DNA from: Bacteroidales bacterium | GTDB taxonomy: Bacteria > Bacteroidota > Bacteroidia > Bacteroidales > F082 | Assembly (NCBI GenBank): GCA_017632935.1 | Contig: JAGBQJ010000013.1 | Coordinates: 69,970-104,899, forward strand | Direction: 5' to 3' | Length of the DNA stretch: 34,930 nucleotides | In this document: piece by piece, positions 6,869 to 25,041 of the stretch | How the letters are laid out: each line of letters begins with the position of its first letter | Numbering within the stretch: position 1 is the stretch's first letter | Notes under the pieces: model-generated | Database searches by the model: none | What the model was told of the DNA's origin: nothing | What the model saw: only the letters and a program-made list of their open reading frames with translations | Program-made: the position numbers and the translations under genes

Positions 6869-7022
6869 AATGAGCGGAAAACGGGTATAGAAGCTAAAAA
6901 ACGCGATTGAAGCGGTAAAAAATCTTGTTGAAGTGTATTTTTACAAATGACTGAAAATCAAAAATATAAACAATCGGAGCGAAAATTCGCAGAGAAAAAA
7001 ATGCAAAAAACGAATATTTTTC

Positions 7023-7053
7023 TTGCGTACTTTCAAATAAGGTTGTAATTTTG
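7023..7053 (+). promoter_or_regulatory. Promoter of the receptor / giant protein / PorV operon
   Basis: A -33 TTG at 7023-7025 and a -7 TAATTTTG at 7046-7053 are separated by 20 bases, which fits the Bacteroidota consensus well. It leaves a leader of about 50 bases before the receptor start at 7113. It is the only good promoter before the three-gene unit. Confidence 0.7.
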
Positions 7054-7112: not shown

Positions 7113-10100
7113 ATGTTTAAAAATTTACTAATGACCCTTGCTGCAGTGTTGGTCACCTGCACGATGACCATGGCTCAAGCGCAAGGAAGACTGAAAGGCA
7201 AGATTACCGATGACACAGGAGAAACGGTACCATTTGCAAACGTCATTGTTGAAAAAGGCGGAACACAAGTGGGAGGTACATCTTCTGACTTTGACGGTAA
7301 TTATGACATCAACCCGATTCCTCCGGGAACGTACACCTTGAAGGCAAGCTGTATCGGCTACAATGCCTATGTTGTGAACAACATCGTCATTCCGGCCAAC
7401 AAGATTACCTTCTACGACATCAAGATGGCCAGTGGCGCTATCAACATTGGCGAAGTCACGGTTGTCGACTACGAAATTCCTTTGATTTCAAAGGATAACA
7501 CCACGCAAGGTGCCTCCATCACCTCCGAGGAAATCGCCAAACTGCCTGTGCGTTCGGCAGAAGGTGTCGCCGCCAGTGTTGGTGGTGTGTTCTCCGCTGA
7601 CGGTGAGGTCGGCTCCATCCGTGGTTCACGTGAAGGCGCTGTCTACTACATCGACGGTGTGAAAGTCATCGGTAGCACGAGCGTGCCTCAGAGCGCTATC
7701 GACCAGGTCGACGTCATCTTGGGCGGTACGCCTGCCATGTATGGTGACGCCATGGGCGGTATCATCAACATGACCACTAAGGGCCCCAGCCGTACTTGGG
7801 GTGGCGGTATCGAAGCCGAGTACTCGGTCGACGGTTACGGCCACGGCCGCTTGGGTGGTAGCTTGCAGGGACCGCTCATCAAGAGCAGAAAGGACGACAA
7901 GGAAGCCCTCCTCGGTTTCTTCCTCGCTTTTGATTTGACGCGCAACCAGTATGGCTACAGCTCCGCTGTCGGTTACTGGCGTGCCACTGACGAGTATATG
8001 GACAAAATCAGAACACAACCTCTGACCATCGGCATTGGTACCAACGCCACTGCTGCCTACACGCAGAGAGATGACCTGTTCCAGACCCGCTTCCTCAACA
8101 ACACAACCAACCAAAGCATTAACCTGACGGGTAAGATCGACGTCCGTACGGGCAAGACCACCAACCTCACCATCGGTGGTTCGATGGTCAGAAACAGTGG
8201 ACACTATGCCAATGGCCGCGGCCAGTATTACTTCAATACTGACAAGAACTATCTGTCCAAGTCGGGCACCTATCGTGGCTATGTCCGTTTCACCCAGCGT
8301 TTCCAGAGCGATCCTAACAGCACTTCGTTGGTCTCCAATGTGTACTACAGCATCCAGGCCGACTATTCGCGCTATCATGGTGAAGAGGGCGACCCCGATC
8401 TTTGGAACAACATCTTTGCCTATGGCAACTTGGGTAAGTTCACCACTTACAGAGCTCCCAACTATTCGTTCCAGAGCACGGCTATCGACTCAGTGTTGGT
8501 CAACGGAGAATACAAGAGCCTCAGCAATGTGTTCGTGTTGAATAACTACTACGACACTTTGGTGACCTTCAAGCCCTCCAATTTCAACCCTGATTTGGCC
8601 ACCTATGCCAACAATTACTTCGAATTGTATAAGGACTATGGCACTGAGGGTTACTACAACAACCTCTCCAACATCATCCTGAACAACGGTCTGATCAACG
8701 GCATGTCGCCCAACTATGTGTATGGCATGTATGCAGTTCCGGGCACCATCCAGTCTTCTTACTCCAAGTTCGTCAACGACCAGATTGCCGTGAATGTGAA
8801 CGGATCAATGACGCTCGGCAGAGGCGACAACTCTCACGATATCAAGTTGGGCTTCCAGTATGAGCAACAGAACAATTCACAAATGTCGTATAGCGCCAAC
8901 TACTGGACGCTGATGCGCGACATGACCAACTTCCACATCAGAGAGCTTGATCTGGACCACCCCTACGCCAATACATACGATGGCCACGCCGATACGGTGC
9001 TGTTCAACAGACTGTATGACGAAACCACCCAATATACGTTCGACGCCCGCCTGCGTCAGGCCATGGGTCTGCCGGTTGACGGCACGGAGTGGATCCTTAT
9101 CGATACCTACGATTTCGACAACAATACCATTAAGTATTATGATGTTAATGGTAAGCTGCAGATCGGTAGGGTTGACGGCGGCCTCGACATGAGCATGTTC
9201 GGTGCCGACGAGCTGACCCGCGACGGTAACTTCTCGGTTTACTATTATGGCTACAGCTACGACGGCCACAACAAGTACGCTTTGACCGAACGTCCTTCAC
9301 TCTCCGACTTCTTCAACCATCAAGATAATGAAGGTGTCTTTGACCGCCCGATTGGTGCCCAACAGCCCATCTACATGGCCGGTTACCTTCAGGACAAGTT
9401 CGCTTTCAAAGACCTGATCTTCAACATTGGTGTCCGTGTCGACCGTTTCGATGCCAACCAGGATGTGTTGAAAGACCCGTATGTGCTTTATGACTTTAAT
9501 ACCGTTGGCGATGTCAAGAATGCTTTGGCCAACCAATCCATAACCACTGGCGATTTCAATTTTGCCGGTGATGTCTCTAACATCTATATTCCCGATAACA
9601 TCGGTGACGATTATGTTCCTTATGTGAACAAGATCAGCGAAATCACTGAAATCGTTGGTTACCGTAACGGTAACACTTGGTACAACGCGGAAGGTGTTGA
9701 AATCTCCAACCCCGAAGTCCTTGACTATGGTACGGGTGTGACGCCTTGGATTAAGGATAAATATGTTGACATGGCCAATCGTAAGGTTGACATCAACTCC
9801 TTCAAGGACTATGATCCCGCTTGGAGCATCATGCCTCGTATCTCCTTCTCCTTCCCGATTTCCGACGAAGCTTTGTTCTTCGCCCACTACGATGTGTTGA
9901 CGCAGCGTCCTACCAGTGCCTTCTACTGCAGCCCGCTGTATTACTTGCGCTTCACCGACCTTTCCGGTACGGTTGCCAACCCCAACCTGAAGCCTTCGCA
10001 GACCATCGAGTATGAACTCGGTTTCACCCAGAAGGTGACCAACACTTCTTCAATGACGATTTCGGCCTACTACCACGAGTTGCGTAACATGATCCAGATG

Positions 10101-10883
10101 TACCGCTTCAACGGTGCCTTCCCCAAGTCATACAACTCCTACAGCAACCTCGACTTCGGTACCGTCAAGGGTTTGACTGCCAGCTACGATATGCGTCGTA
10201 CGAAGAACGCCCGTATCCGTGCCAGCTACACCCTGCAGTTCGCCGACATGACTGGTTCTTCGACCTCCACCGCCGCCGCTTTGATTGCTGCTGGTGTGCC
10301 TAACCTGAGATCCACCTTCCCGACCAATGCCGACCGTCGTCACAGCTTCAACCTGACCCTCGACTATCGTTATTCAGAAGGTAAGGACTATGACGGTCCC
10401 ACCATCAAGGGAGTCCAGTTCCTGTCCAACACCGGTTTTGCTCTGCAAGTCAACGGTGGTTCGGGTACGCCTTTCACCGCTGCCCGTAACGTGTCGTCGC
10501 CCATCTCGGGTGGTAACAGCCTGCTCCAAGGTACCTACAATGGTTCCCGTATCCCGGCTTCGTTCCGTTTCGACCTCCGTGTCGACAAGGACTTCAACTT
10601 CACCATGGGTGGAAAGAAGGAAGGCTCGAAGGGTCGCGATGCTTTCGTGAACGTGTACCTGCAAGTGCTTAACCTGCTCAACTCTAAGAACATCGTTGGT
10701 GTGTATAACGCTACCGGTAACCCCGATGACGACGGTTACCTCTCGGCACCTGAATGGGCTAATGAGATCAACAGTCAGATTGACCCGCAGGCTTACATCC
10801 AAATGTATGAACTGTATGTCAACAATCCAGGTTTCTACTCGATGCCTCGTCACATCAGAGTGGGTTTGAGCTTCAATTTCTAA
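7113..10883 (+). CDS. TonB-dependent receptor (first gene of T9SS-linked unit)
   Basis: This 1256-residue outer-membrane receptor has a signal peptide (about 1-24) and a carboxypeptidase-like regulatory domain (about 25-110: GRLKGKITDDTGETVPFANV). A plug domain follows (about 125-225, with the YYIDGVKV and GGTPAMYGDAMGGIINMTT motifs). The rest is a long beta-barrel rich in Tyr, Asn and aromatic pairs, ending in LSFNF, the usual terminal Phe. Such proteins import a ligand with energy from TonB-ExbBD. There is no SusD-like gene beside it. The next gene, 37 bases on, instead encodes a giant secreted protein, followed by a PorV-like barrel. Gly GGT and Arg CGT codons appear favoured, unlike the GGC/CGC of purL, which hints at high expression. 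The substrate is unknown. Confidence 0.93.
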   Translation: MFKNLLMTLAAVLVTCTMTMAQAQGRLKGKITDDTGETVPFANVIVEKGGTQVGGTSSDFDGNYDINPIPPGTYTLKASCIGYNAYVVNNIVIPANKITFYDIKMASGAINIGEVTVVDYEIPLISKDNTTQGASITSEEIAKLPVRSAEGVAASVGGVFSADGEVGSIRGSREGAVYYIDGVKVIGSTSVPQSAIDQVDVILGGTPAMYGDAMGGIINMTTKGPSRTWGGGIEAEYSVDGYGHGRLGGSLQGPLIKSRKDDKEALLGFFLAFDLTRNQYGYSSAVGYWRATDEYMDKIRTQPLTIGIGTNATAAYTQRDDLFQTRFLNNTTNQSINLTGKIDVRTGKTTNLTIGGSMVRNSGHYANGRGQYYFNTDKNYLSKSGTYRGYVRFTQRFQSDPNSTSLVSNVYYSIQADYSRYHGEEGDPDLWNNIFAYGNLGKFTTYRAPNYSFQSTAIDSVLVNGEYKSLSNVFVLNNYYDTLVTFKPSNFNPDLATYANNYFELYKDYGTEGYYNNLSNIILNNGLINGMSPNYVYGMYAVPGTIQSSYSKFVNDQIAVNVNGSMTLGRGDNSHDIKLGFQYEQQNNSQMSYSANYWTLMRDMTNFHIRELDLDHPYANTYDGHADTVLFNRLYDETTQYTFDARLRQAMGLPVDGTEWILIDTYDFDNNTIKYYDVNGKLQIGRVDGGLDMSMFGADELTRDGNFSVYYYGYSYDGHNKYALTERPSLSDFFNHQDNEGVFDRPIGAQQPIYMAGYLQDKFAFKDLIFNIGVRVDRFDANQDVLKDPYVLYDFNTVGDVKNALANQSITTGDFNFAGDVSNIYIPDNIGDDYVPYVNKISEITEIVGYRNGNTWYNAEGVEISNPEVLDYGTGVTPWIKDKYVDMANRKVDINSFKDYDPAWSIMPRISFSFPISDEALFFAHYDVLTQRPTSAFYCSPLYYLRFTDLSGTVANPNLKPSQTIEYELGFTQKVTNTSSMTISAYYHELRNMIQMYRFNGAFPKSYNSYSNLDFGTVKGLTASYDMRRTKNARIRASYTLQFADMTGSSTSTAAALIAAGVPNLRSTFPTNADRRHSFNLTLDYRYSEGKDYDGPTIKGVQFLSNTGFALQVNGGSGTPFTAARNVSSPISGGNSLLQGTYNGSRIPASFRFDLRVDKDFNFTMGGKKEGSKGRDAFVNVYLQVLNLLNSKNIVGVYNATGNPDDDGYLSAPEWANEINSQIDPQAYIQMYELYVNNPGFYSMPRHIRVGLSFNF

Positions 10884-10920
10884 TAGGAGAGACTATTCAT
10901 AACGAAAAATTACAAGTATT

Positions 10921-13900
10921 ATGAAGAATATATTTCGAATTTTGTTAGCGACCCTGCTCATCGCGGGCGCTGTGACTCCCGGAAAGGCTGACAGGTACAA
11001 GTATGAGCAAAATAACAGCAAAGGCCAGCGTGCCCAGACTGCTGCCGGTTGTACGCCTTCGTCAGCTTTCGAATGGCTTGACATCAACAATGTCAGAACC
11101 CGTATCAACGCGGGTGGTGACATGTGGTGGGACCTTCCCTCTGGAACGGGTTCCAAGTACTTCATTCCCGCCAACGGCTCTGCTACTTCATTGTTCGCTG
11201 GCTCCCTGTGGATCGCTGGTGTCGACGTCAACAACCAGTTGAAGTGCGCCGCCCTGCGTTTCCGTCAGGTAGGTAACGACTACTACACCGGCCCTCTGAC
11301 CGTCGACGGCAAGGCCTCCATCACTCCCGAGACCTGCGCTAAGTGGGATAAGATCTTCAAGATCACCCGCGCTGAGGTCGACGAGTTCCTCGCCAACTAT
11401 CAAGCTGGCAATGTCGAGGAAATCCCGTCCATCATTGCCAACTGGCCTGCCATTCGTAGTGGTGACGATCCGGAAGGCATCGCCTACTATCTGGCTCCTT
11501 TCTACGATGCTGACGGTGACGGTGATTATAATCCTGCCAATGGTGACTATCCTTACTATGATATCACCAACGAACTCTGCCATACCAAGATTCCGACGAT
11601 GGAAGAAGAGGTTTATGGAACCATGCACGGCTCCATCTTGGCCGACCAAGTGCTGAAGGGCGACCAAACCCTGTGGTGGATCTTCAATGATAAAGGTGCT
11701 GCCCACACTGAGTCGGGCGGTCAAGCCATCGGTATCGAAGTCCGTGCTCAAGCTTTCGCTTTCGCCACGAACGACGAAATCAACAACATGACTTTCTACA
11801 GCTATGAAATCATCAACCGTTCCACCTATACTTTGACGGGCACTTACTTCTCGCCTTGGACCGACGTTGACCTCGGTTACGGTTACGACGACTATGTAGG
11901 TTGCGACGTTGAACGTGGTCTCGGCTATGGTTACAACGGTGCCTATATCGATGGTAGTGGTGAACCTGAAGCCTACGGCGCTCAGCCTCCGGCGTTGGGT
12001 ATCGACTTCTTCCAGGGCCCCTACATGGATGCGGACGGTATCGACAACCCGAAATATGAAACCACTATCGTTAAGACTTTTGACCATATCGATCCTGCCA
12101 CCAATGACTCCATTTTCACTTTCGACACGGTCTATGGTAACCAAATGGTCGACGAAAGTATTAACGGTGTGAACTTCGGCAACGGCATCATCGACGACGA
12201 ACGTTTCGGTATGCGCCGTTTCGTGTATCACAACAACAGCTCCGCCGATAACGGTGACCCGAGCACGGCTCCCCAATACTACAACTACCTGCGTGGTATT
12301 TGGAAGAACGGTGCCAAGATGCGTTACGGTGGTGATGCCTTCTCGAGCAGCGACGTTGTCGGCCCTGAATGCGACTTCATGTTCCCTGGCGATTCCGACC
12401 CGTGGAACTGGGGTACTGGCGGCAACGCGCCTAACGGTGGCTTCAATACCGGTGGTAAGTATTGGACTGAAGAGCAGTGCGGCAATGCACCTAACGACCG
12501 TCGTTTCATGCAGTCGGCTGGTCCCTTCACCCTGGAACCCGGTGCTGTCAACTACATCACCTTCGGTGTGCCGTGGGCACGTGCTACCTCTGGTGGTGCC
12601 TGGGCATCTGTTGAACTGCTGCGCGTGGTCGACGACAAGTGCCAAGCCTTGTTCGACAACTGCTTTAAGGTCATCGACGGCCCCAGTGCTCCCGATTTGA
12701 CCATCCGCGAGCTCGACCAAAAGCTCATCATCTATCTGTCGAATGGTACGCTCTCCAACAACTACAAGGAAGGCTACATCGAGCTTGACCCCGAAATCCC
12801 GACTGGTAGAACTGAGAATGAACTGGTTGCTAAAGATACCACGTGGTATATTAGTGTTGATGGCGATAGTATTTATCAAGTGGAAGAGAAATACCAAGAC
12901 ACCACTTATGTTTACGACAGATATTATCGTTTTGAAGGTTATAAGGTGTATCAGCTGGCCAACGCCGAGGTGGGTGCTGATGAGCTGAACAACAACGACA
13001 AGGCCCGTCTGGTGTTCCAGTGCGACGTCCGTAACAACGTGGGCCGTCTGCTCAACTACGAATTCGATGAGTCGTTGCAAGCTAATGTGCCGTTCCTGAA
13101 GGTGAACGGTGGCGATGCTGGTATCACCCACAGCTTCGTGGTTACCGAGGACGAGTTCTCAACAAGCGACAACCCGAACTTGATCAACCACACACCTTAT
13201 TACTATATGGCTGTTGCTTATGCATACAACAACTATCTGACCTACAACCAGGACGACGCTCTCGGTCTGCAAGGTCAAAAGAAGCCTTATCTCGAAGGTA
13301 GAAAGAACATTCAGGTGTATACCGCTATTCCTCACATGACTATCAACGGTACTGTGTTGCAATCTCACTATGGTGACAGCCCTGCCATCACCCGTGTCGT
13401 TGGCGCTGGTAATGGTTACACTGAACTTGAACTGAGCCAAGCTTCGATTGATGAAATCATGAGCAAGAGACTCGCTGATGGTTATACCGAAGACGAAAAC
13501 CATAATCCTGTCTTTATCGATCACAATCCTGACATCAATGAACCGGTTCTCTTCGGTAACCCCAACTATCCTGCCTGCTACCATCCCACCTACGAGCCTG
13601 GTTATGGTCCCATCGACGTGAAGATCATCGACCCGTTGAATGTGAAGTCACACAACTACGAGTTGGTCTTTGACGAAATGTTTGAGAAATACACGCAGCA
13701 CGTCACCAACAATCCTGACATCAGAGGTGACTCCGCTGCCCGTATGGTGAACCGTTGGTGGCTGAGGGATCTTGACGAGCCCGAAGAAGAGGGAGTCAAT
13801 CCTATCCCGAGTGACACGACGACTATTTACGACAACGAACAGCTGTTTATTGATCGCGGTATTTCCGTAAGTGTTACTCAGGTCTATCAGTTCGGCCGTA

Positions 13901-15531
13901 TCTGGATTGGTAAGTATTATAACAGCAGTGATAGCCAGTCGCCATGGAAAGACTACAATACTGTGGTTGCCACCAACAACGGTGTGGTCGGTTCTTCTAT
14001 CGAATACACCGATCCTAGCAACCAATGGATGAGCTTTATCCGCGATATTGACGTTCCTGACTCCTATTTGAACTGGATCCGTTCGGGATCGTATGTGGAT
14101 ATGAACAATGCTTCCTACAACGACTATCAGATGTCATCTCAATCCTATGGTGGTACTGGTTCAAGTAAGCCTTGGGACCCGAATGAGAATTGGGAGAAGA
14201 TTGCCAGTCGTGCATGGACTACTCCGCTGTTTGCCACGTATTCTGGCCAAGGTGGTCAGAGGAACCCTGGCCCGGGACGTAGTGTTGACGCACGTATCGA
14301 CGGCCACTTTAAGCTTACAACCAGCATCGATATCGTGTTTACTGCTGATAAGAGCAAGTGGACCCGTTGCCCCGTCATCGAGATGGGTATGGATAAGAAA
14401 CTTAACGAAAACGGCGTTGATCGTTTCTATCTGCGTAAGCACGCTTCGGTTGACAAGGATGGTAACCCATACATGCTTAAGGACCAAAACAATAATGACA
14501 GTATTCCGTTCAACCTCTGGTTAAAGGCTGGCCAAGCCGAGTATGCAAGTGCTAACGAGGACGACCCGAACTTCATCGCTCCTCAGGGCATGGGCTGGTT
14601 CCCGGGCTATGTCATCGATGTGGAGAATGGCGTGCGTTTGAACGTGGCCTTCGGTGAAGACTCCTATCTGGAGGACATGGGCGGCCGCGACATGATCTTC
14701 AACCCGGCCAAAGTCCAGAAGGCTACGGCCGAAGATGCTTCGGGCTTGCTGCAAGAGTATGACCCGGCCATCTTCCGTGGTGCTGACAATGATCCTGTGT
14801 TTGGTGGTAAGCACTTCGTCTACATCTGGCGTATGGACTCCATCGCTGTGGATAATACGGTGCCGTGGAAATACCTGACGAATTATGGTTATGACGGTGG
14901 TCAACTGTTGTTCAACTCCTTTAATGCGCTCCAGCATATGACCGAAGATTATAGTGATGTCGTGATTGACTTCATATACCAAATGGTCATGTGGATGGGT
15001 ATGCCGATGGGTGTGGAAAGCATGGAATGGCTGCCTGAAGGCAACGACTGCCGCATCCGCATCCGTTTGGCCAAGCCTTACGCTCCTGGCTATGGTTACC
15101 CGTTGCAGGTGGAGAATCCTGACCTGAACGTGAACAACATGAATCCGAAGTACATCTTCTCGATTGAAGGCTGGGATCCTGTCCAAAACGATCCTAAAAA
15201 GACCGACGAAGACTTGAACCTCATTACGGTGGTGCCTAATCCTTACTATGCTTACAATTCATACGAAGGCAACGCACTGACCAACAAGGTGAAGATCACC
15301 AACCTGCCTAACAAGTGTATCGTTTCCATCTATACCTTGAGTGGCACGAAGGTGCGTCAGTTCCGTAAGGATAATGAAGAACCGAGTATCGAATGGGACC
15401 TCACGAACTTTGCCAATACGCCTGTGGCTAGCGGCTTCTACTTGATCCACATCAAGGATTTGACCAGCGGCGGCGAGCGTACCATCAAGTTCTTCGGTGC
15501 CATGCGTCAAGTTGACCTGAACACATTCTAA
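10921..15531 (+). CDS. Giant T9SS-exported surface protein
   Basis: This 1536-residue protein has a signal peptide (about 1-23) and a large beta-rich ectodomain. A DADGDGDYNPANGDYP motif (196-211) resembles the Ca2+ loops of thrombospondin type 3 repeats. The stretch HTESGGQAIGIEVRAQAFAF and the GCDVERGLGYGYNG region match a family I know from large Bacteroidota T9SS proteins of unknown function. The last ~95 residues look like a T9SS sorting domain: VVPNPYYAY, then KITNLPNKCIVSIYTLSGT, then ASGFYLIHI and TIKFFGAMRQ. It should be exported by Sec, then cross the outer membrane by T9SS. It lies between its receptor and a PorV-like gene, with gaps of 37 and 33 bases. No catalytic motif was found, so an adhesin or ligand-binding role is only a guess. 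Confidence 0.88.
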   Translation: MKNIFRILLATLLIAGAVTPGKADRYKYEQNNSKGQRAQTAAGCTPSSAFEWLDINNVRTRINAGGDMWWDLPSGTGSKYFIPANGSATSLFAGSLWIAGVDVNNQLKCAALRFRQVGNDYYTGPLTVDGKASITPETCAKWDKIFKITRAEVDEFLANYQAGNVEEIPSIIANWPAIRSGDDPEGIAYYLAPFYDADGDGDYNPANGDYPYYDITNELCHTKIPTMEEEVYGTMHGSILADQVLKGDQTLWWIFNDKGAAHTESGGQAIGIEVRAQAFAFATNDEINNMTFYSYEIINRSTYTLTGTYFSPWTDVDLGYGYDDYVGCDVERGLGYGYNGAYIDGSGEPEAYGAQPPALGIDFFQGPYMDADGIDNPKYETTIVKTFDHIDPATNDSIFTFDTVYGNQMVDESINGVNFGNGIIDDERFGMRRFVYHNNSSADNGDPSTAPQYYNYLRGIWKNGAKMRYGGDAFSSSDVVGPECDFMFPGDSDPWNWGTGGNAPNGGFNTGGKYWTEEQCGNAPNDRRFMQSAGPFTLEPGAVNYITFGVPWARATSGGAWASVELLRVVDDKCQALFDNCFKVIDGPSAPDLTIRELDQKLIIYLSNGTLSNNYKEGYIELDPEIPTGRTENELVAKDTTWYISVDGDSIYQVEEKYQDTTYVYDRYYRFEGYKVYQLANAEVGADELNNNDKARLVFQCDVRNNVGRLLNYEFDESLQANVPFLKVNGGDAGITHSFVVTEDEFSTSDNPNLINHTPYYYMAVAYAYNNYLTYNQDDALGLQGQKKPYLEGRKNIQVYTAIPHMTINGTVLQSHYGDSPAITRVVGAGNGYTELELSQASIDEIMSKRLADGYTEDENHNPVFIDHNPDINEPVLFGNPNYPACYHPTYEPGYGPIDVKIIDPLNVKSHNYELVFDEMFEKYTQHVTNNPDIRGDSAARMVNRWWLRDLDEPEEEGVNPIPSDTTTIYDNEQLFIDRGISVSVTQVYQFGRIWIGKYYNSSDSQSPWKDYNTVVATNNGVVGSSIEYTDPSNQWMSFIRDIDVPDSYLNWIRSGSYVDMNNASYNDYQMSSQSYGGTGSSKPWDPNENWEKIASRAWTTPLFATYSGQGGQRNPGPGRSVDARIDGHFKLTTSIDIVFTADKSKWTRCPVIEMGMDKKLNENGVDRFYLRKHASVDKDGNPYMLKDQNNNDSIPFNLWLKAGQAEYASANEDDPNFIAPQGMGWFPGYVIDVENGVRLNVAFGEDSYLEDMGGRDMIFNPAKVQKATAEDASGLLQEYDPAIFRGADNDPVFGGKHFVYIWRMDSIAVDNTVPWKYLTNYGYDGGQLLFNSFNALQHMTEDYSDVVIDFIYQMVMWMGMPMGVESMEWLPEGNDCRIRIRLAKPYAPGYGYPLQVENPDLNVNNMNPKYIFSIEGWDPVQNDPKKTDEDLNLITVVPNPYYAYNSYEGNALTNKVKITNLPNKCIVSIYTLSGTKVRQFRKDNEEPSIEWDLTNFANTPVASGFYLIHIKDLTSGGERTIKFFGAMRQVDLNTF

Positions 15532-15564
15532 AATGTAATTGCTAACCGTAAATAACTTATCATC

Positions 15565-16653
15565 ATGAAGAAATCATTTAGATATATCGTCTTGAGCTTC
15601 GTAATCCTTATGGGATTAAGTGCTCCTCAAGCATTTGCAGGAAATAAAGACCGTTCAGGCCAAGCTGGCGCTTCCGAGCTGTTGATTAACCCCTGGGCCG
15701 CTTCTTCGGGCTGGGGCAATGCAGGCATGTCGTCTATTCATGGCGTCGAAGCCATCTTTGGCAACGTGGCTGGCATCAGCTCATGCCGCACCCTGGATGT
15801 TGATTTCAGCCACACATGGTGGTTGCAGGGCATAGGCAACGACACCCGTATCTCTTCGTTCGGCTTTTTGGCCCGCGTGGGAGAATCGAGCGTGTTGGGC
15901 CTGTCGTTCATGTCGTTCAGCATCGGTGAGATTCCGATCACGACGGTTGGAAATCCCGATGTCGGTACCCTTGGTACCTACAAGCCCAACCTGATGAACA
16001 TCAACCTGGCGTTTGCTAAGGCTTTCTCCAACAGCATCAGCGGCGGTGTCAACTTGAAGATCATCAGCGAGTCCATTAAGGATATGAGCGGTGTCGGCGT
16101 GGCCTTGGATGCTGGTATCCAGTATGTCACCGGTCCCTTCGACAACATCCACTTCGGTATCACGCTGAAGAACATTGGACCCACCATGAAGTTCTCGGGT
16201 GACGGTCTCTCGTTGAAGGTGTTCATGGACAACGCCAGCAATCAGCAGTTCACCATGGTGCAACGTGCCGACGACTTCGAGTTGCCCACCCAGTTGAGCA
16301 TCGCTGCCGCCTATGACTTCCTGTTTGCCGAAACAAACAGAATCACTTTGGCTGGTGACTTTGTATCCAACTCCTTCACCAACGACCAATTCACCGTCGG
16401 TTTGGAGTATGGCTGGAAAGAGATGTTCATGATCCGTGCCGGTTACACTTATGAAAACGGCATCTGGTCGAGGGAAGGCATCCTTTACGACGATGGCTGC
16501 ATGAACATCAACCGTGGCCTCAGCGCTGGTATGTCCCTCGATGTGCCGGTATCGAAGAAGGAAGACGCCATGCGTTTCGCAGTGGATTATTCCTACAGAG
16601 ACACCTACACCTTCGGTGGCACCCACAGCGTGGGCGTGAGAATTATTTTCTAA
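15565..16653 (+). CDS. PorV/PorQ-family outer-membrane protein
   Basis: The 362-residue product has a signal peptide ending near AFAG. The N-terminal pattern (SGQAGASELLINPWA, then GNAGMSS, then AIFGNVAGIS) is diagnostic of the PorV/PorQ branch of FadL-like barrels. The rest is a beta-barrel that ends in VGVRIIF. In T9SS, PorV collects cargo at the SprA translocon by its C-terminal signal and carries it to the attachment complex, and PorQ plays a related part in that complex. This copy sits directly behind a T9SS cargo gene, 33 bases on, with no attachment sortase (PorU) nearby. It is therefore more likely a cargo-specific paralogue than the core porV. That is inference; family membership is well supported. 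Confidence 0.88.
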   Translation: MKKSFRYIVLSFVILMGLSAPQAFAGNKDRSGQAGASELLINPWAASSGWGNAGMSSIHGVEAIFGNVAGISSCRTLDVDFSHTWWLQGIGNDTRISSFGFLARVGESSVLGLSFMSFSIGEIPITTVGNPDVGTLGTYKPNLMNINLAFAKAFSNSISGGVNLKIISESIKDMSGVGVALDAGIQYVTGPFDNIHFGITLKNIGPTMKFSGDGLSLKVFMDNASNQQFTMVQRADDFELPTQLSIAAAYDFLFAETNRITLAGDFVSNSFTNDQFTVGLEYGWKEMFMIRAGYTYENGIWSREGILYDDGCMNINRGLSAGMSLDVPVSKKEDAMRFAVDYSYRDTYTFGGTHSVGVRIIF

Positions 16654-16703: not shown

Positions 16704-16738
16704 GGAAGACCCTTATTTCGATAAGGGTCTCCTTTTTT
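16704..16738 (+). terminator. Intrinsic terminator in the greA leader
   Basis: A perfect 10-base stem (AGACCCTTAT / ATAAGGGTCT) closes a TTCG tetraloop and is followed by CC and six T. It could end the upstream operon. As it lies downstream of the only visible greA promoter, it may also act as an attenuator. Confidence 0.9.
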
Positions 16739-17730: not shown

Positions 17731-19002
17731 ATGAAAAGAATCACCTTATTAATATGGACCTTGCTCTTTTCTGCAGGCCTCTTTGCGCAGGATTTTGATT
17801 TGCCTTGCGGCAATATCAACTACAGGCCTGAAGTGCAGACCGTGCTTCTTTATGCCGACGACAACCAGCTGAACGACCCCATTGTTCCGCTTGGGGACAT
17901 GATGGGCCGTCTGACCCTTTCTTTCGATATCATCGACGGCGAGGGCGAGGTGCTGAACTATACCTTCATCCATTGCAGCCACGACTGGATGCCCACCGAA
18001 ATCCAGCGTATGCAATATGCCTCAGGCTTTGAGTCGGGCCGCTTGGACGATTACGCCTTTTCGCGCAACACCTTGATTGATTACGTCAACTACCAACTCA
18101 GATTCCCTACTGAGGACATGATGCCGCTCCTCTCGGGTAACTACCTGCTCATCGTTTATGGAGATGATATGAACGACCTTTATTTCACGCGCCGTTTCAT
18201 GGTCGTCGACGAGAAAGCCCATGTGGGTGCCACGGTGCCGCGTTATCCCGACGACCTGACGCTCACTGATACCCACCAGCAGCTCAATATCAAGGTGAAC
18301 ATGAACAACTACTTGACAGGCAACACGGAGCAATACAGCTTCCTGACCATCCGTCAAAACGGGCGCTGGGACAATGCCGCCGAGGGCTTGAAGCCCACCT
18401 ATGTCTATCCCGATTACATCTCCTTTGAGCATCATCCCCAGACCGTGTTTGAGGCTGCCAACCAATACTTCCGCTTCAATACCAGCAATTTCCATTTTCA
18501 GTCGGAAAACCTGGCTCACATCCGGCAGACCGACGAGTGCTACGAAATCGACATTGCCACTTGTAAATCTCGGGCTAGGGAGGCCTACGTCTCCTATGAG
18601 GACATCCACGGCGAAAAGTTCATCTATGTGGAAGACGAGAACATGGACAATGTGACCGAAGCCGACTATTGTCGCGTCAACTTCTTCTATGAGAGTGAGG
18701 CTCCGTTGACCCACGAGGATCTTTACATCATGGGTGCCCTTAACGACTGGTGCTTCAACGAGAGCAACAAGATGACCTACGACTACCGATTGCACGGCTA
18801 CACTTGCTCGATGGTGCTCAAGCAAGGCTATTATAACTTCATGATGGTCACCCTCGACCGTGGCACCAATGAGATTCTTACCGACCTGACTGTAGGCAAT
18901 CACTGGGAGACCAACAATGTCTACAAGCTGTATTTCTACTTCTACAACGCCCTCAAAGGTTACGACGAGTTGATAGGTTATTCCATCGTGAATTCACATT
19001 GA
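17731..19002 (+). CDS. T9SS Plug protein (DUF5103)
   Basis: In Flavobacterium johnsoniae this family blocks the periplasmic face of the SprA translocon when no cargo is passing. The 423-residue product has a signal peptide (MKRITLLIWTLLFSAGLFAQ) and no membrane segment after it. The mature part begins with the conserved IV-type strand pattern (RPEVQTVLLYADDNQLNDPIVPLG split by turns), then the SFDIIDGEGEVLNYTFIHC and HDWMPTEI region, and later the DLYIMGALNDWCFNES stretch. These match the DUF5103 / T9SS plug family as I know it. It shows that a T9SS is present or was present in this organism. It stands as a single gene after greA-HIT, and its stop is followed by an intergenic repeat. Confidence 0.85.
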   Translation: MKRITLLIWTLLFSAGLFAQDFDLPCGNINYRPEVQTVLLYADDNQLNDPIVPLGDMMGRLTLSFDIIDGEGEVLNYTFIHCSHDWMPTEIQRMQYASGFESGRLDDYAFSRNTLIDYVNYQLRFPTEDMMPLLSGNYLLIVYGDDMNDLYFTRRFMVVDEKAHVGATVPRYPDDLTLTDTHQQLNIKVNMNNYLTGNTEQYSFLTIRQNGRWDNAAEGLKPTYVYPDYISFEHHPQTVFEAANQYFRFNTSNFHFQSENLAHIRQTDECYEIDIATCKSRAREAYVSYEDIHGEKFIYVEDENMDNVTEADYCRVNFFYESEAPLTHEDLYIMGALNDWCFNESNKMTYDYRLHGYTCSMVLKQGYYNFMMVTLDRGTNEILTDLTVGNHWETNNVYKLYFYFYNALKGYDELIGYSIVNSH

Positions 19003-22542: not shown

Positions 22543-25041
22543 ATGAAAAAAACTATTCTATTCCTGCTGGCGCTATTATGTTGCGCCCAACTCTCTTTCG
22601 CCGCCATCACCGTGAAAGGCCGCGTCTTCGACAACTCGACGGGCCATCCTATGGAATACGCCACCGTGCGTGCCTGCACTTTGCCTGATAAGACCTTCGT
22701 GTCGGGATGTGTCACCAATTCCTCGGGACATTTTACTATGGAACTCGAGAAAGGCCGCTATGAGCTTGAAATCCAGTATATGGGCTTTGTCACTTCTTTT
22801 AAAACCATCAACCTTGACGGCACTAAAAGCACAGTCGATGTGGGCAAGATCAGCCTCTCGCCCGACAGCCGTATGCTGAACGAGGTGAATGTGGTGGCCG
22901 AGAAAAGCACCTACGAGATGACCCTTGACAAGCACGTCTTCAACGTAGGCAAGGACGTGGGCAACACCGCTGGCAATGCCATCGAAGTGCTGGAAAACAT
23001 CCCCGCCGTGTCGGTCGATGTAGAAGGCAATGTCAGCCTGCGTGGCGACGATGGCGTGCGCATCCTCATCGATGGCAAGGAGTCGGGCCTCTCAGGCATG
23101 AGCACCCAGGACGCGCTGCGTACCCTGCAAGGTGACATGATTGAGAGGGTAGAGGTCATCACCAATCCTTCAGTGCGTTACGATGCAGAAGGTTCGGCGG
23201 GCATCATCAACATCATCCTGAAGAAAGACAAACGCCAAGGCTTCAATGGCGCGGTCAACCTGCGTACGGGCTATCCCTGGATGTACGGCGCGAGCCTCAC
23301 GGGCAACTACCGTCTGAAACGCTGGAACTTCTTTGGCAGCTATGGCTTCAATAGCCGCAGTAACATCGGTGGTGGCGTCAACCAGACCAAACGCTTTGTG
23401 CTGGATACCATTGGTGAAGGCCCCGGCATGACTTTCGACACCCTCTTCACCCAACTCACCGACCAGACCACGGAACGCCGTATGCGCCGCATGGGTCATA
23501 ACGTGCGTGTGGGTGCGGATTACTATATTACTGATAATGACATTGTTAGTGCGGCTTTCGTCTACCGTTATGGCCGTTTGGAGACACATCCTGTGGTGAA
23601 ATACTTCGACGAATACCCTTTGCTGGGCACTTCATCCTACGACGAGCGTGCCGAGGACTATGAGGAATACGAGCCCATGTACGAGGTCACTCTCGACTAC
23701 GACAAGACCTTTGAACGCAAAGGCCGCAGCCTGAAGGCCAACGTGCGCTATTTCACCAACGCTGAGAACTCGAACTCCGACATCACGGAGACGCTCTATC
23801 CTGACAAGAACATGGAGCAGACCTTGTGGACGCTCTATCAGAAGACGGGCAACGACCAGAACATGCGCAATTTGCAGGCCAGCATCGACTATGTGCATCC
23901 TTTCCTGCTCAATGCGAAGTGGGAAATCGGCGCGAAATACACCAACCGCAACATCAACAGCCTCTCGGAAGTGACGGAGCAAGACAGCACGGGGCAATAT
24001 CATCCATTGAGCGACTATTGCTACGACTATGAATACAGCGAGCAAGTGGCCGCGTTTTACACCAGCCTCGGCAACGAATGGGGTCGTTGGTCGGGACAAA
24101 TCGGTCTGCGTGCCGAGATGACCGACATCATGACCAATCTGAGGGGGTATGCCCACGATGGCACCGACTCCATCAACGGCGGCAAGCCCTATTTTGACTT
24201 CTTCCCGAGCGCCCACCTCAATTATTCAGTGAGCGAGAACGACCAGTTCCAAGTGAGCTACACGCGCCGCATCCGCCGTCCCGGATTCTGGCAGATGAGC
24301 CCCTTCCGTTCCTACAACGACAACCGTAACATCCGCATGGGCAACCCCGCCTTGCAGCCGACCTATACCGACAGCTACGAGTTAGGCTATATCCATTTCT
24401 GGGATAAGGCAAGCTTCAACTTCACGGCTTATTACCGCCACAGTAACAACATGATACGTCATTATACCTACGAGCGAGAAGGTGTGTTCTACAGTGTGCC
24501 CATCAACTTCGGCAAGGCTGACGATTTCGGCGTGGAAGCCGTTGCCCAAGGCCAGATGACGAAATGGTGGAACTTAAATGGCAATGTCAATTTCTTCCGC
24601 TCGCATTTCAATGGCGAAATCAATGGCAAGACATACGATGACGCCACTTGGATGCTCTTCGGTCGCGCTGTTTCGAAGTTCAAGATCAGCAATTGGTTTG
24701 ACCTGCAGCTGACTGCGCATGTCATGGGCCCGCACAAGGAGCCGCTCGGTATGCACAAGGGCAACTGGTGGATGGACCTCGCGGTGAGCAAAGACATCCT
24801 TAACGGCAACGGCACTATCACTTTCAACGTGCGCGACCTCTTTAACAGCCGCAGTTGGGGCGGTGAGTCGTGGGGCGACGGCTTCTGGCAGTACAGCACC
24901 AGCACCTGGAACCGTCGTTCGTTCTCGCTCAACTTCAACTACCGCATCAACCAGCAGAACATGAAGCGTGGCCGTCGTCCGATGGATGAAGGCGGCGACG
25001 AAGGCGGTGGCGAGGAGCAGCAGATGGAAGAAGGATATTAA
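22543..25041 (+). CDS. TonB-type receptor with outer membrane beta-barrel family domain
   Basis: The 832-residue product has a signal peptide (about 1-20), a carboxypeptidase-like domain (about 23-105: ITVKGRVFDNSTGHPMEYATV) and a plug-like domain (about 115-235). The plug has NIPAVSVDVEGNVSLRGDDG, then ILIDGK, then RYDAEGSAGIINIILKK. These fit the receptor-like family with a compact barrel (OMP_b-brl_3 type) rather than SusC. The barrel's last strand is RRSFSLNFNYRI, followed by an unusual ~30-residue tail rich in Gly, Glu and Arg instead of an aromatic end. No SusD-like or substrate-processing gene is beside it, so the ligand cannot be told. It has its own promoter and is probably a single-gene unit. 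Confidence 0.9.
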   Translation: MKKTILFLLALLCCAQLSFAAITVKGRVFDNSTGHPMEYATVRACTLPDKTFVSGCVTNSSGHFTMELEKGRYELEIQYMGFVTSFKTINLDGTKSTVDVGKISLSPDSRMLNEVNVVAEKSTYEMTLDKHVFNVGKDVGNTAGNAIEVLENIPAVSVDVEGNVSLRGDDGVRILIDGKESGLSGMSTQDALRTLQGDMIERVEVITNPSVRYDAEGSAGIINIILKKDKRQGFNGAVNLRTGYPWMYGASLTGNYRLKRWNFFGSYGFNSRSNIGGGVNQTKRFVLDTIGEGPGMTFDTLFTQLTDQTTERRMRRMGHNVRVGADYYITDNDIVSAAFVYRYGRLETHPVVKYFDEYPLLGTSSYDERAEDYEEYEPMYEVTLDYDKTFERKGRSLKANVRYFTNAENSNSDITETLYPDKNMEQTLWTLYQKTGNDQNMRNLQASIDYVHPFLLNAKWEIGAKYTNRNINSLSEVTEQDSTGQYHPLSDYCYDYEYSEQVAAFYTSLGNEWGRWSGQIGLRAEMTDIMTNLRGYAHDGTDSINGGKPYFDFFPSAHLNYSVSENDQFQVSYTRRIRRPGFWQMSPFRSYNDNRNIRMGNPALQPTYTDSYELGYIHFWDKASFNFTAYYRHSNNMIRHYTYEREGVFYSVPINFGKADDFGVEAVAQGQMTKWWNLNGNVNFFRSHFNGEINGKTYDDATWMLFGRAVSKFKISNWFDLQLTAHVMGPHKEPLGMHKGNWWMDLAVSKDILNGNGTITFNVRDLFNSRSWGGESWGDGFWQYSTSTWNRRSFSLNFNYRINQQNMKRGRRPMDEGGDEGGGEEQQMEEGY

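Follow-up and report, generated by a model that had tools for sequence, protein, structure and literature searches.

What might a TonB-dependent receptor without a SusD partner be doing beside a large secreted protein and a PorV-like barrel? This question is raised by three adjacent genes in a Bacteroidales genome (GenBank assembly GCA_017632935.1, contig JAGBQJ010000013.1, positions 69,970 to 104,899); the window is the whole 34,930-nucleotide stretch that was analysed. A sequence-only reading had described three large genes on one strand and proposed that the second product, a cargo of the type IX secretion system (T9SS), replaces SusD as the surface partner of the receptor and uses the third product as a dedicated shuttle. 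The three open reading frames (ORFs) are indeed present, all on the + strand, receptor and cargo being separated by 37 bases and cargo and barrel by 33. They encode a TonB-dependent receptor of 1256 residues (7113..10883, from the ORF and domain searches), a large T9SS cargo of 1536 residues that is the proposed surface partner of the receptor (10921..15531, from the ORF, TIGR04183 and homologues) and a PorV/PorQ-family barrel of 362 residues (15565..16653, from the ORF and NF033709). The comparisons described below make it probable that this trio serves TonB-dependent uptake in the manner of SusCD, with a T9SS-delivered partner, and that its own barrel holds this partner on the surface.

Conservation of the gene order had been set beforehand as a test of the earlier reading, and the order is widely preserved. 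Cargo matches at E<=0.001 occur in 155 of 296 genomes sampled from the phylum and in 86 of 198 sampled from the order. A total of 80 loci were fetched around cargo matches, mostly the stronger ones, and were searched in six frames with profiles of all three proteins; with the window included, receptor, cargo and barrel are found in the same order on one strand at 71 of 81 loci. In a second set of named loci, the best 80 of one profile scan made with a 16-row cargo alignment, the trio is present in 74 and four more are cut by contig ends (the fetched and named sets overlap in some genomes). Cut ends or short paralogs account for 13 of the 16 loci without a complete trio; for example, L033 ends and L105 starts at a contig edge, and L071 begins at the edge of the extracted region, with the receptor just upstream (L285). 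L071 also has two further cargos without a receptor or barrel of their own. Among the matches listed, the named loci closest to the window cargo come from genome bins of Bacteroidales or Bacteroidia, whose titles in several cases point to ruminant stomachs. The greA and HIT genes downstream of the trio in the order are tentatively read as vertical inheritance. In viral contigs, no cargo relative was found with the one pattern used. At L133, receptor, cargo and barrel are followed by a second full-length cargo, so that one barrel perhaps serves two cargos.

The cargo also follows the secretion system that it would need. A sprA match was detected in 229 of the 296 phylum genomes (228 over the cut-off), including all 155 cargo genomes, and the cargo occurs in none of the 67 genomes without sprA. 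For sprA and porU, the window genome is as the earlier reading would have it: at 92% completeness (2.86 Mb, 62 contigs), it contains sprA and two PorU, together with one PorQ and two proteins above the PorV cut-off. A T9SS is therefore likely to be present in this genome, with the trio barrel as an extra PorV-family member.

In Pfam, the receptor shows a CarboxypepD_reg and a TonB Plug domain. It has no match to the SusC/RagA model (TIGR04056) among NCBIfam matches at E<=1, and one paralogous receptor reaches 86 bits with that model, against a cut-off of 368. The absence of a SusD partner noted earlier holds as well, in that none of the nine window neighbours scanned matches SusD and the cargo itself has no Pfam family at E<=1. 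Receptor residues 114-128 (7452..7496, + strand), located after the N-terminal domain and ahead of the plug, form a TonB-box-like stretch that is alignable in the 103 receptors compared, as judged by eye.

The assignment of the third gene to the PorV/PorQ family stands, with 153 bits to NF033709 (cut-off 90). The more specific models are not reached: the barrel scores 90 bits with the canonical PorV equivalog NF033710 (cut-off 250), 53 with PorQ NF033711 (cut-off 220), 45 with PorV2 NF052325 (cut-off 325) and 27 with PorP/SprF TIGR03519 (cut-off 91), and it just passes the looser Pfam PorP_SprF (23.9 vs 22.3). In a PorV-family tree of 84 rows, the core trio barrels fall into one well-separated branch with support of 100/99 that includes one second-copy barrel of genome G267, the other paralogous trio barrels group together (85/97), and 16 canonical PorV rows make up a third group (90/94). 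No usable row was obtained for 14 loci, the PorQ of the window genome among them, and PorQ is thus unplaced. Three long-branched rows that carry the canonical label (L234, L255 and L257) do not join the canonical group; the ORF chosen at these loci was probably in the wrong frame. The tree and the model scores support a separate PorV subfamily for the trio barrel, apart from canonical PorV.

The T9SS-type C-terminal signal claimed for the cargo is borderline in the window protein and much clearer in its relatives. The sole NCBIfam match of the window cargo is TIGR04183, at residues 1439-1513 with 18.2 bits, and since this is below the cut-off of 23, the claim would be weak from this one protein; the homologues back it. 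At E<=0.01, TIGR04183 matches 23 of 31 core cargo homologues and the PorZ model matches 25 of 31, although the PorZ model has no match at that threshold in the window cargo itself. The type B domain TIGR04131 is not among the NCBIfam matches of the cargo at E<=1. The sorting domain, delimited by profiles and homologues, covers residues 1434-1536 (15220..15528, + strand), and among its named relatives PorZ comes closest (PDB 5m11, E 0.0011 by profile search). In many core cargos a conserved tail with the consensus end R-x-x-D-L-x-x-F extends past the usual T9SS end motif (15478-15528 in the window).

A profile of the last 112 residues of the cargo, built from 76 core cargos, was run on the paralogous loci, with only proteins reaching E 1e-4 counted. 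For the 33 proteins encoded between a receptor and a barrel, of which three had served to build the profile, scores are 45-148 bits, compared with 20-31 bits for 16 other sorted proteins at the same loci. Three of these 16 are PorU or PorU-like; for one (L301), identity as PorU is suggested by its place, size and C-terminal score. The remaining four sorted proteins, at 54-62 bits, are the cargos of rearranged trios. Trio cargos thus have a common C-terminal subtype with PorZ-like features, as judged from these profiles; among 20 long paralogous cargos, the PorZ model matches seven and TIGR04183 one. An NLPxxC-like motif was also tried as a class marker and proved specific and insensitive, occurring in 22 of 37 paralogous cargos, none of the 16 others and 49 of the 76 core cargos; the profile score did separate the classes.

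The most conserved part of the cargo lies at the other end of the protein. From the predicted fold and the alignment, residues ~44-585 (11050..12675, + strand) are predicted to adopt the super-beta-sandwich fold known from sugar-processing enzymes, while the helical barrel of those enzymes is lacking; structure comparison finds this sandwich in glycoside hydrolases and phosphorylases. Seven acidic residues in this region are invariant (D315, D317, D323, D324, D329, D344 and D362). The top rank of PorZ in a whole-homologue Foldseek search (E 5e-7) was given little weight, with TM-scores of 0.10-0.13 and a root-mean-square deviation of 32 A.

The sequence-only reading saw a single case, and the arrangement turns out to recur as a large, paralog-rich family, with up to 16 trios in one genome. 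PorV-family matches number 8-28 per genome in the other classes examined vs 3-8 in the class of the window. In addition to 20 paralogous loci selected for high PorV scores (L259-L278), all PorV-family genes over the cut-off were surveyed in three genomes of other classes (G188, G050 and G267); the counts per genome were 8, 9 and 20. At 26 of these 37 genes, both a receptor and a cargo that has the C-terminal domain described above are encoded alongside, in rearranged order in three cases (L262, L298 and L304). Three others directly follow a PorU-sized protein, two of which are confirmed PorU, and eight have no adjoining receptor; at one of these eight, L293, a receptor-like ORF starts five genes further along. 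Among the 16 trios of a single genome, pairwise distances are correlated between receptor and barrel (r 0.84), C-terminal domain and barrel (0.68) and receptor and ectodomain (0.85), each with p 0.0005. A trio is also found on a plasmid: in Rhodothermus marinus DSM 4252, pRMAR01 is annotated with a TonB-dependent receptor (RMAR_RS14120), a hypothetical protein (RMAR_RS14115) and a PorV/PorQ family protein (RMAR_RS14110), and the next genes encode a peptidoglycan-recognition protein and a serine hydrolase. A variant layout in three genomes (L262, L270 and L298) has the order cargo, ~710-775-residue protein, ~515-590-residue protein, receptor and barrel.

The neighbours of the paralogous trios are enriched in T9SS-tailed proteins. 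Of 149 operon-like neighbours of at least 150 residues, 113 were chosen by hand and scanned, the ten of L293 being left out. T9SS tails are present in 34 of them (21 of 48 plus 13 of 65), compared with two of 80 control genes drawn at random from 109 of at least 200 residues in the same loci (p 3e-7). Several neighbours are sugar-active: an alpha-amylase and a carbohydrate-binding module family 20 (CBM20) protein at L276, both T9SS-tailed; a T9SS-tailed glycoside hydrolase family 9 (GH9) protein at L259, with a sensor kinase containing Reg_prop and Y_Y_Y domains; a putative glucoamylase at L264; GH88 at L291; and GH38 at L308. At L321, a T9SS-tailed CBM9 protein and GH10 are followed by a SusCD pair, and the ORFs of L322 have the same layout. 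Such neighbours make a glycan the likely ligand of several paralogous trios. This is less sure for the window trio, which no enzyme adjoins.

If these elements act together, the receptor would import its ligand with TonB energy, as its plug and TonB-box-like stretch suggest, and the cargo would exit through Sec and then SprA by means of its C-terminal domain, in keeping with that domain and with the co-occurrence of sprA. The PorV-family barrel of the trio would take the cargo from SprA and retain it on the surface via an uncleaved C-terminal domain, on the model of PorV holding PorU and PorQ holding PorZ. The surface super-beta-sandwich would then capture the ligand, most likely a glycan, and hand it to the neighbouring receptor, with which it would be in contact.

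The scheme can be compared with several known systems. Like SusCD, the trio pairs a TonB receptor with an adjacent large partner and is multiplied within genomes; some copies lie in loci with T9SS-tailed sugar enzymes, and one paralogous trio is ~8 kb from a SusCD pair. Unlike SusCD, the window trio has no SusD family match, its partner has a T9SS domain, a PorV-family barrel is added and the receptor has no SusC/RagA match. The second comparison is with PorU and PorZ, whose C-terminal domains, according to a review, stay uncleaved and bound to PorV and PorQ (PMC10202324; also PMC5562754). Here too a surface protein goes with a PorV/PorQ-family barrel, and the trio homologues have PorZ as their closest named match at the C-terminus; however, PorU:PorV and PorZ:PorQ serve cargo processing, whereas the trio has a TonB receptor and a barrel outside the canonical PorV group. 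As PorZ remains uncleaved on its barrel, 'anchor' may be a better term than 'shuttle' for the trio barrel.

Type B cargos (SprB-SprF, PG1035-PorP-PorE) offer a third comparison, since they have a dedicated barrel encoded just downstream of the cargo, also proposed as a surface anchor (PMC12618676; PMC9143113). The trio likewise has a presumably dedicated barrel just 3' of its cargo, but it differs in C-terminal class and main barrel family, and the passages cited mention no TonB receptor for the type B operons. With dedicated barrels known for type B cargo (PMC12618676), the trio is a variant of a known principle and not a new kind. The published xylan locus of R. marinus (Rmar_1067-1081), in which a TonB receptor lies beside a xylanase and a hypothetical protein with a T9SS domain (PMC6987092), was considered and dropped as a trio (Rmar_1070-1072): the similarly laid-out L319 has no PorV-family gene there. 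At L319, two GH10 genes enclose a receptor and a sorted protein whose sorting domain scores 20 bits, as in ordinary cargo; in two genomes of the same genus, a trio lies near GH10, its receptor cut by the edge of the region. No description of the trio was found in the literature searched, which lay outside preprints and most subscription papers.

The flanks of the window trio are less distinctive. The 'one good promoter' of the sequence-only reading corresponds to a Bacteroidota-type promoter-like site, CTTG-N20-TAATTTTG (7022..7053, + strand), which is recovered by a relaxed pattern fitted to that site itself (0.02 matches expected by chance); the strict pattern has no match there. Sigma-70-like sites are not enriched relative to shuffles (13 vs 10.2), and on the strand of the trio the sole upstream one is ~490 bases distant. 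A terminator-like hairpin of 10 pairs with a T run (16707..16730, + strand) begins 54 bases past the last stop, such sites being no more frequent over the region than in shuffles. A DAHP synthase/chorismate mutase is encoded upstream; downstream are genes for GreA, for a HIT protein and for the Plug protein of the T9SS (PF17116). The Plug gene (17731-19002, + strand) starts 84 bases past the HIT gene, so that two T9SS-related units lie near each other. Separate from the trio, another protein resembling a TonB receptor, a member of the OMP_b-brl_3 family, is encoded at 22543-25041 (+ strand).

Several observations weigh against an uptake unit of this kind. Full-length cargos without a receptor or barrel nearby are found at L066, L210 and L214, and six loci (L136-L141) have short cargo paralogs alone; these proteins of ~530-800 residues, found in the order, might use a trio barrel in trans. 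Cargo is absent from 74 of the 229 sprA genomes, and is thus no core part of the T9SS. In the order sample, sprA is found in 84 of 86 cargo genomes and 187 of 198 overall (p 0.12, with little power); the two cargo genomes without it are 74% and 82% complete. Weak cargo matches outside the fetched set, down to E 4e-4, may in some cases be matches to the sorting domain alone. Duplication of the cassette would by itself produce correlated divergence of its parts. Some paralogous trios have non-sugar neighbours, such as a T9SS-tailed peptidase S51 protein (L260) and cytochrome and TPR proteins (L295), and the window trio itself adjoins no enzyme. Likeness of fold to sugar enzymes at 8-11% identity is no proof of sugar binding, the window cargo's own model has only three Foldseek matches at E<=0.001, all to one entry, and short paralogous cargos have only the C-terminal domain in common with the window cargo family. 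Of the three outcomes named beforehand as refuting the earlier reading, an unconserved trio and a genome lacking sprA did not occur, and a cargo C-terminus foreign to T9SS sorting profiles is a borderline matter in the window protein that its homologues decide. Taken with the conservation, the sprA co-occurrence, the C-terminal subtype and the separate PorV subfamily, the points listed here leave the proposal of a SusD-replacing partner with a dedicated shuttle partly supported.

Three other explanations bear on the same data. The cargo and barrel could be a cognate pair for T9SS surface attachment, with a separate receptor that has only regulation in common with them and forms no complex with the cargo. 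Adjacent PorU and PorV genes and the established pairing of type B cargo with PorP/SprF (PMC12618676) are precedents for such pairs; however, the receptor is also present at 26 of the 37 PorV-family genes, and in the one genome compared its distances track those of the barrel at least as closely as the C-terminal domain does, and this explanation is judged unlikely. It is more doubtful still that the core trio has an accessory role in the T9SS or in outer-membrane biogenesis, as BamG-BamH has for the barrel-assembly machinery (BAM), and no part in nutrient uptake. The nearby Plug gene and the lack of enzyme neighbours in the window would fit such a role, as would recent BAM structures that show a barrel with a large surface protein in biogenesis; yet many sprA genomes manage without the cargo, paralogs reach 16 in one genome with several adjoining sugar enzymes, and the conserved cargo region has a predicted sugar-enzyme fold. 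Least probable, by a little, is a cargo that is itself a surface glycosidase or lyase and not a binding partner: the sandwich is known from glycoside hydrolases and phosphorylases and is rich in invariant acidic residues, but the helical barrel, which is the catalytic part in GH15, GH94 and GH116, is absent, with few and short helices in the model past residue 460, and the cargo matches no Pfam family.

The uptake unit with a T9SS-delivered, barrel-held partner is accordingly the preferred explanation for the window trio. Its extension to the whole phylum is an evenly balanced proposition: a third design of TonB uptake, present in up to 16 copies per genome, in which a receptor, a T9SS-exported binding protein and a PorV-subfamily anchor reading its own C-terminal subtype replace SusD lipoproteins. 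If this is true, TonB nutrient uptake and type IX secretion, two hallmarks of the phylum, would be joined in one unit, many unexplained PorV-family paralogs and 'hypothetical' cargos would gain a role, and the trios would supply naturally matched cargo-barrel pairs with which to study T9SS sorting and surface retention.
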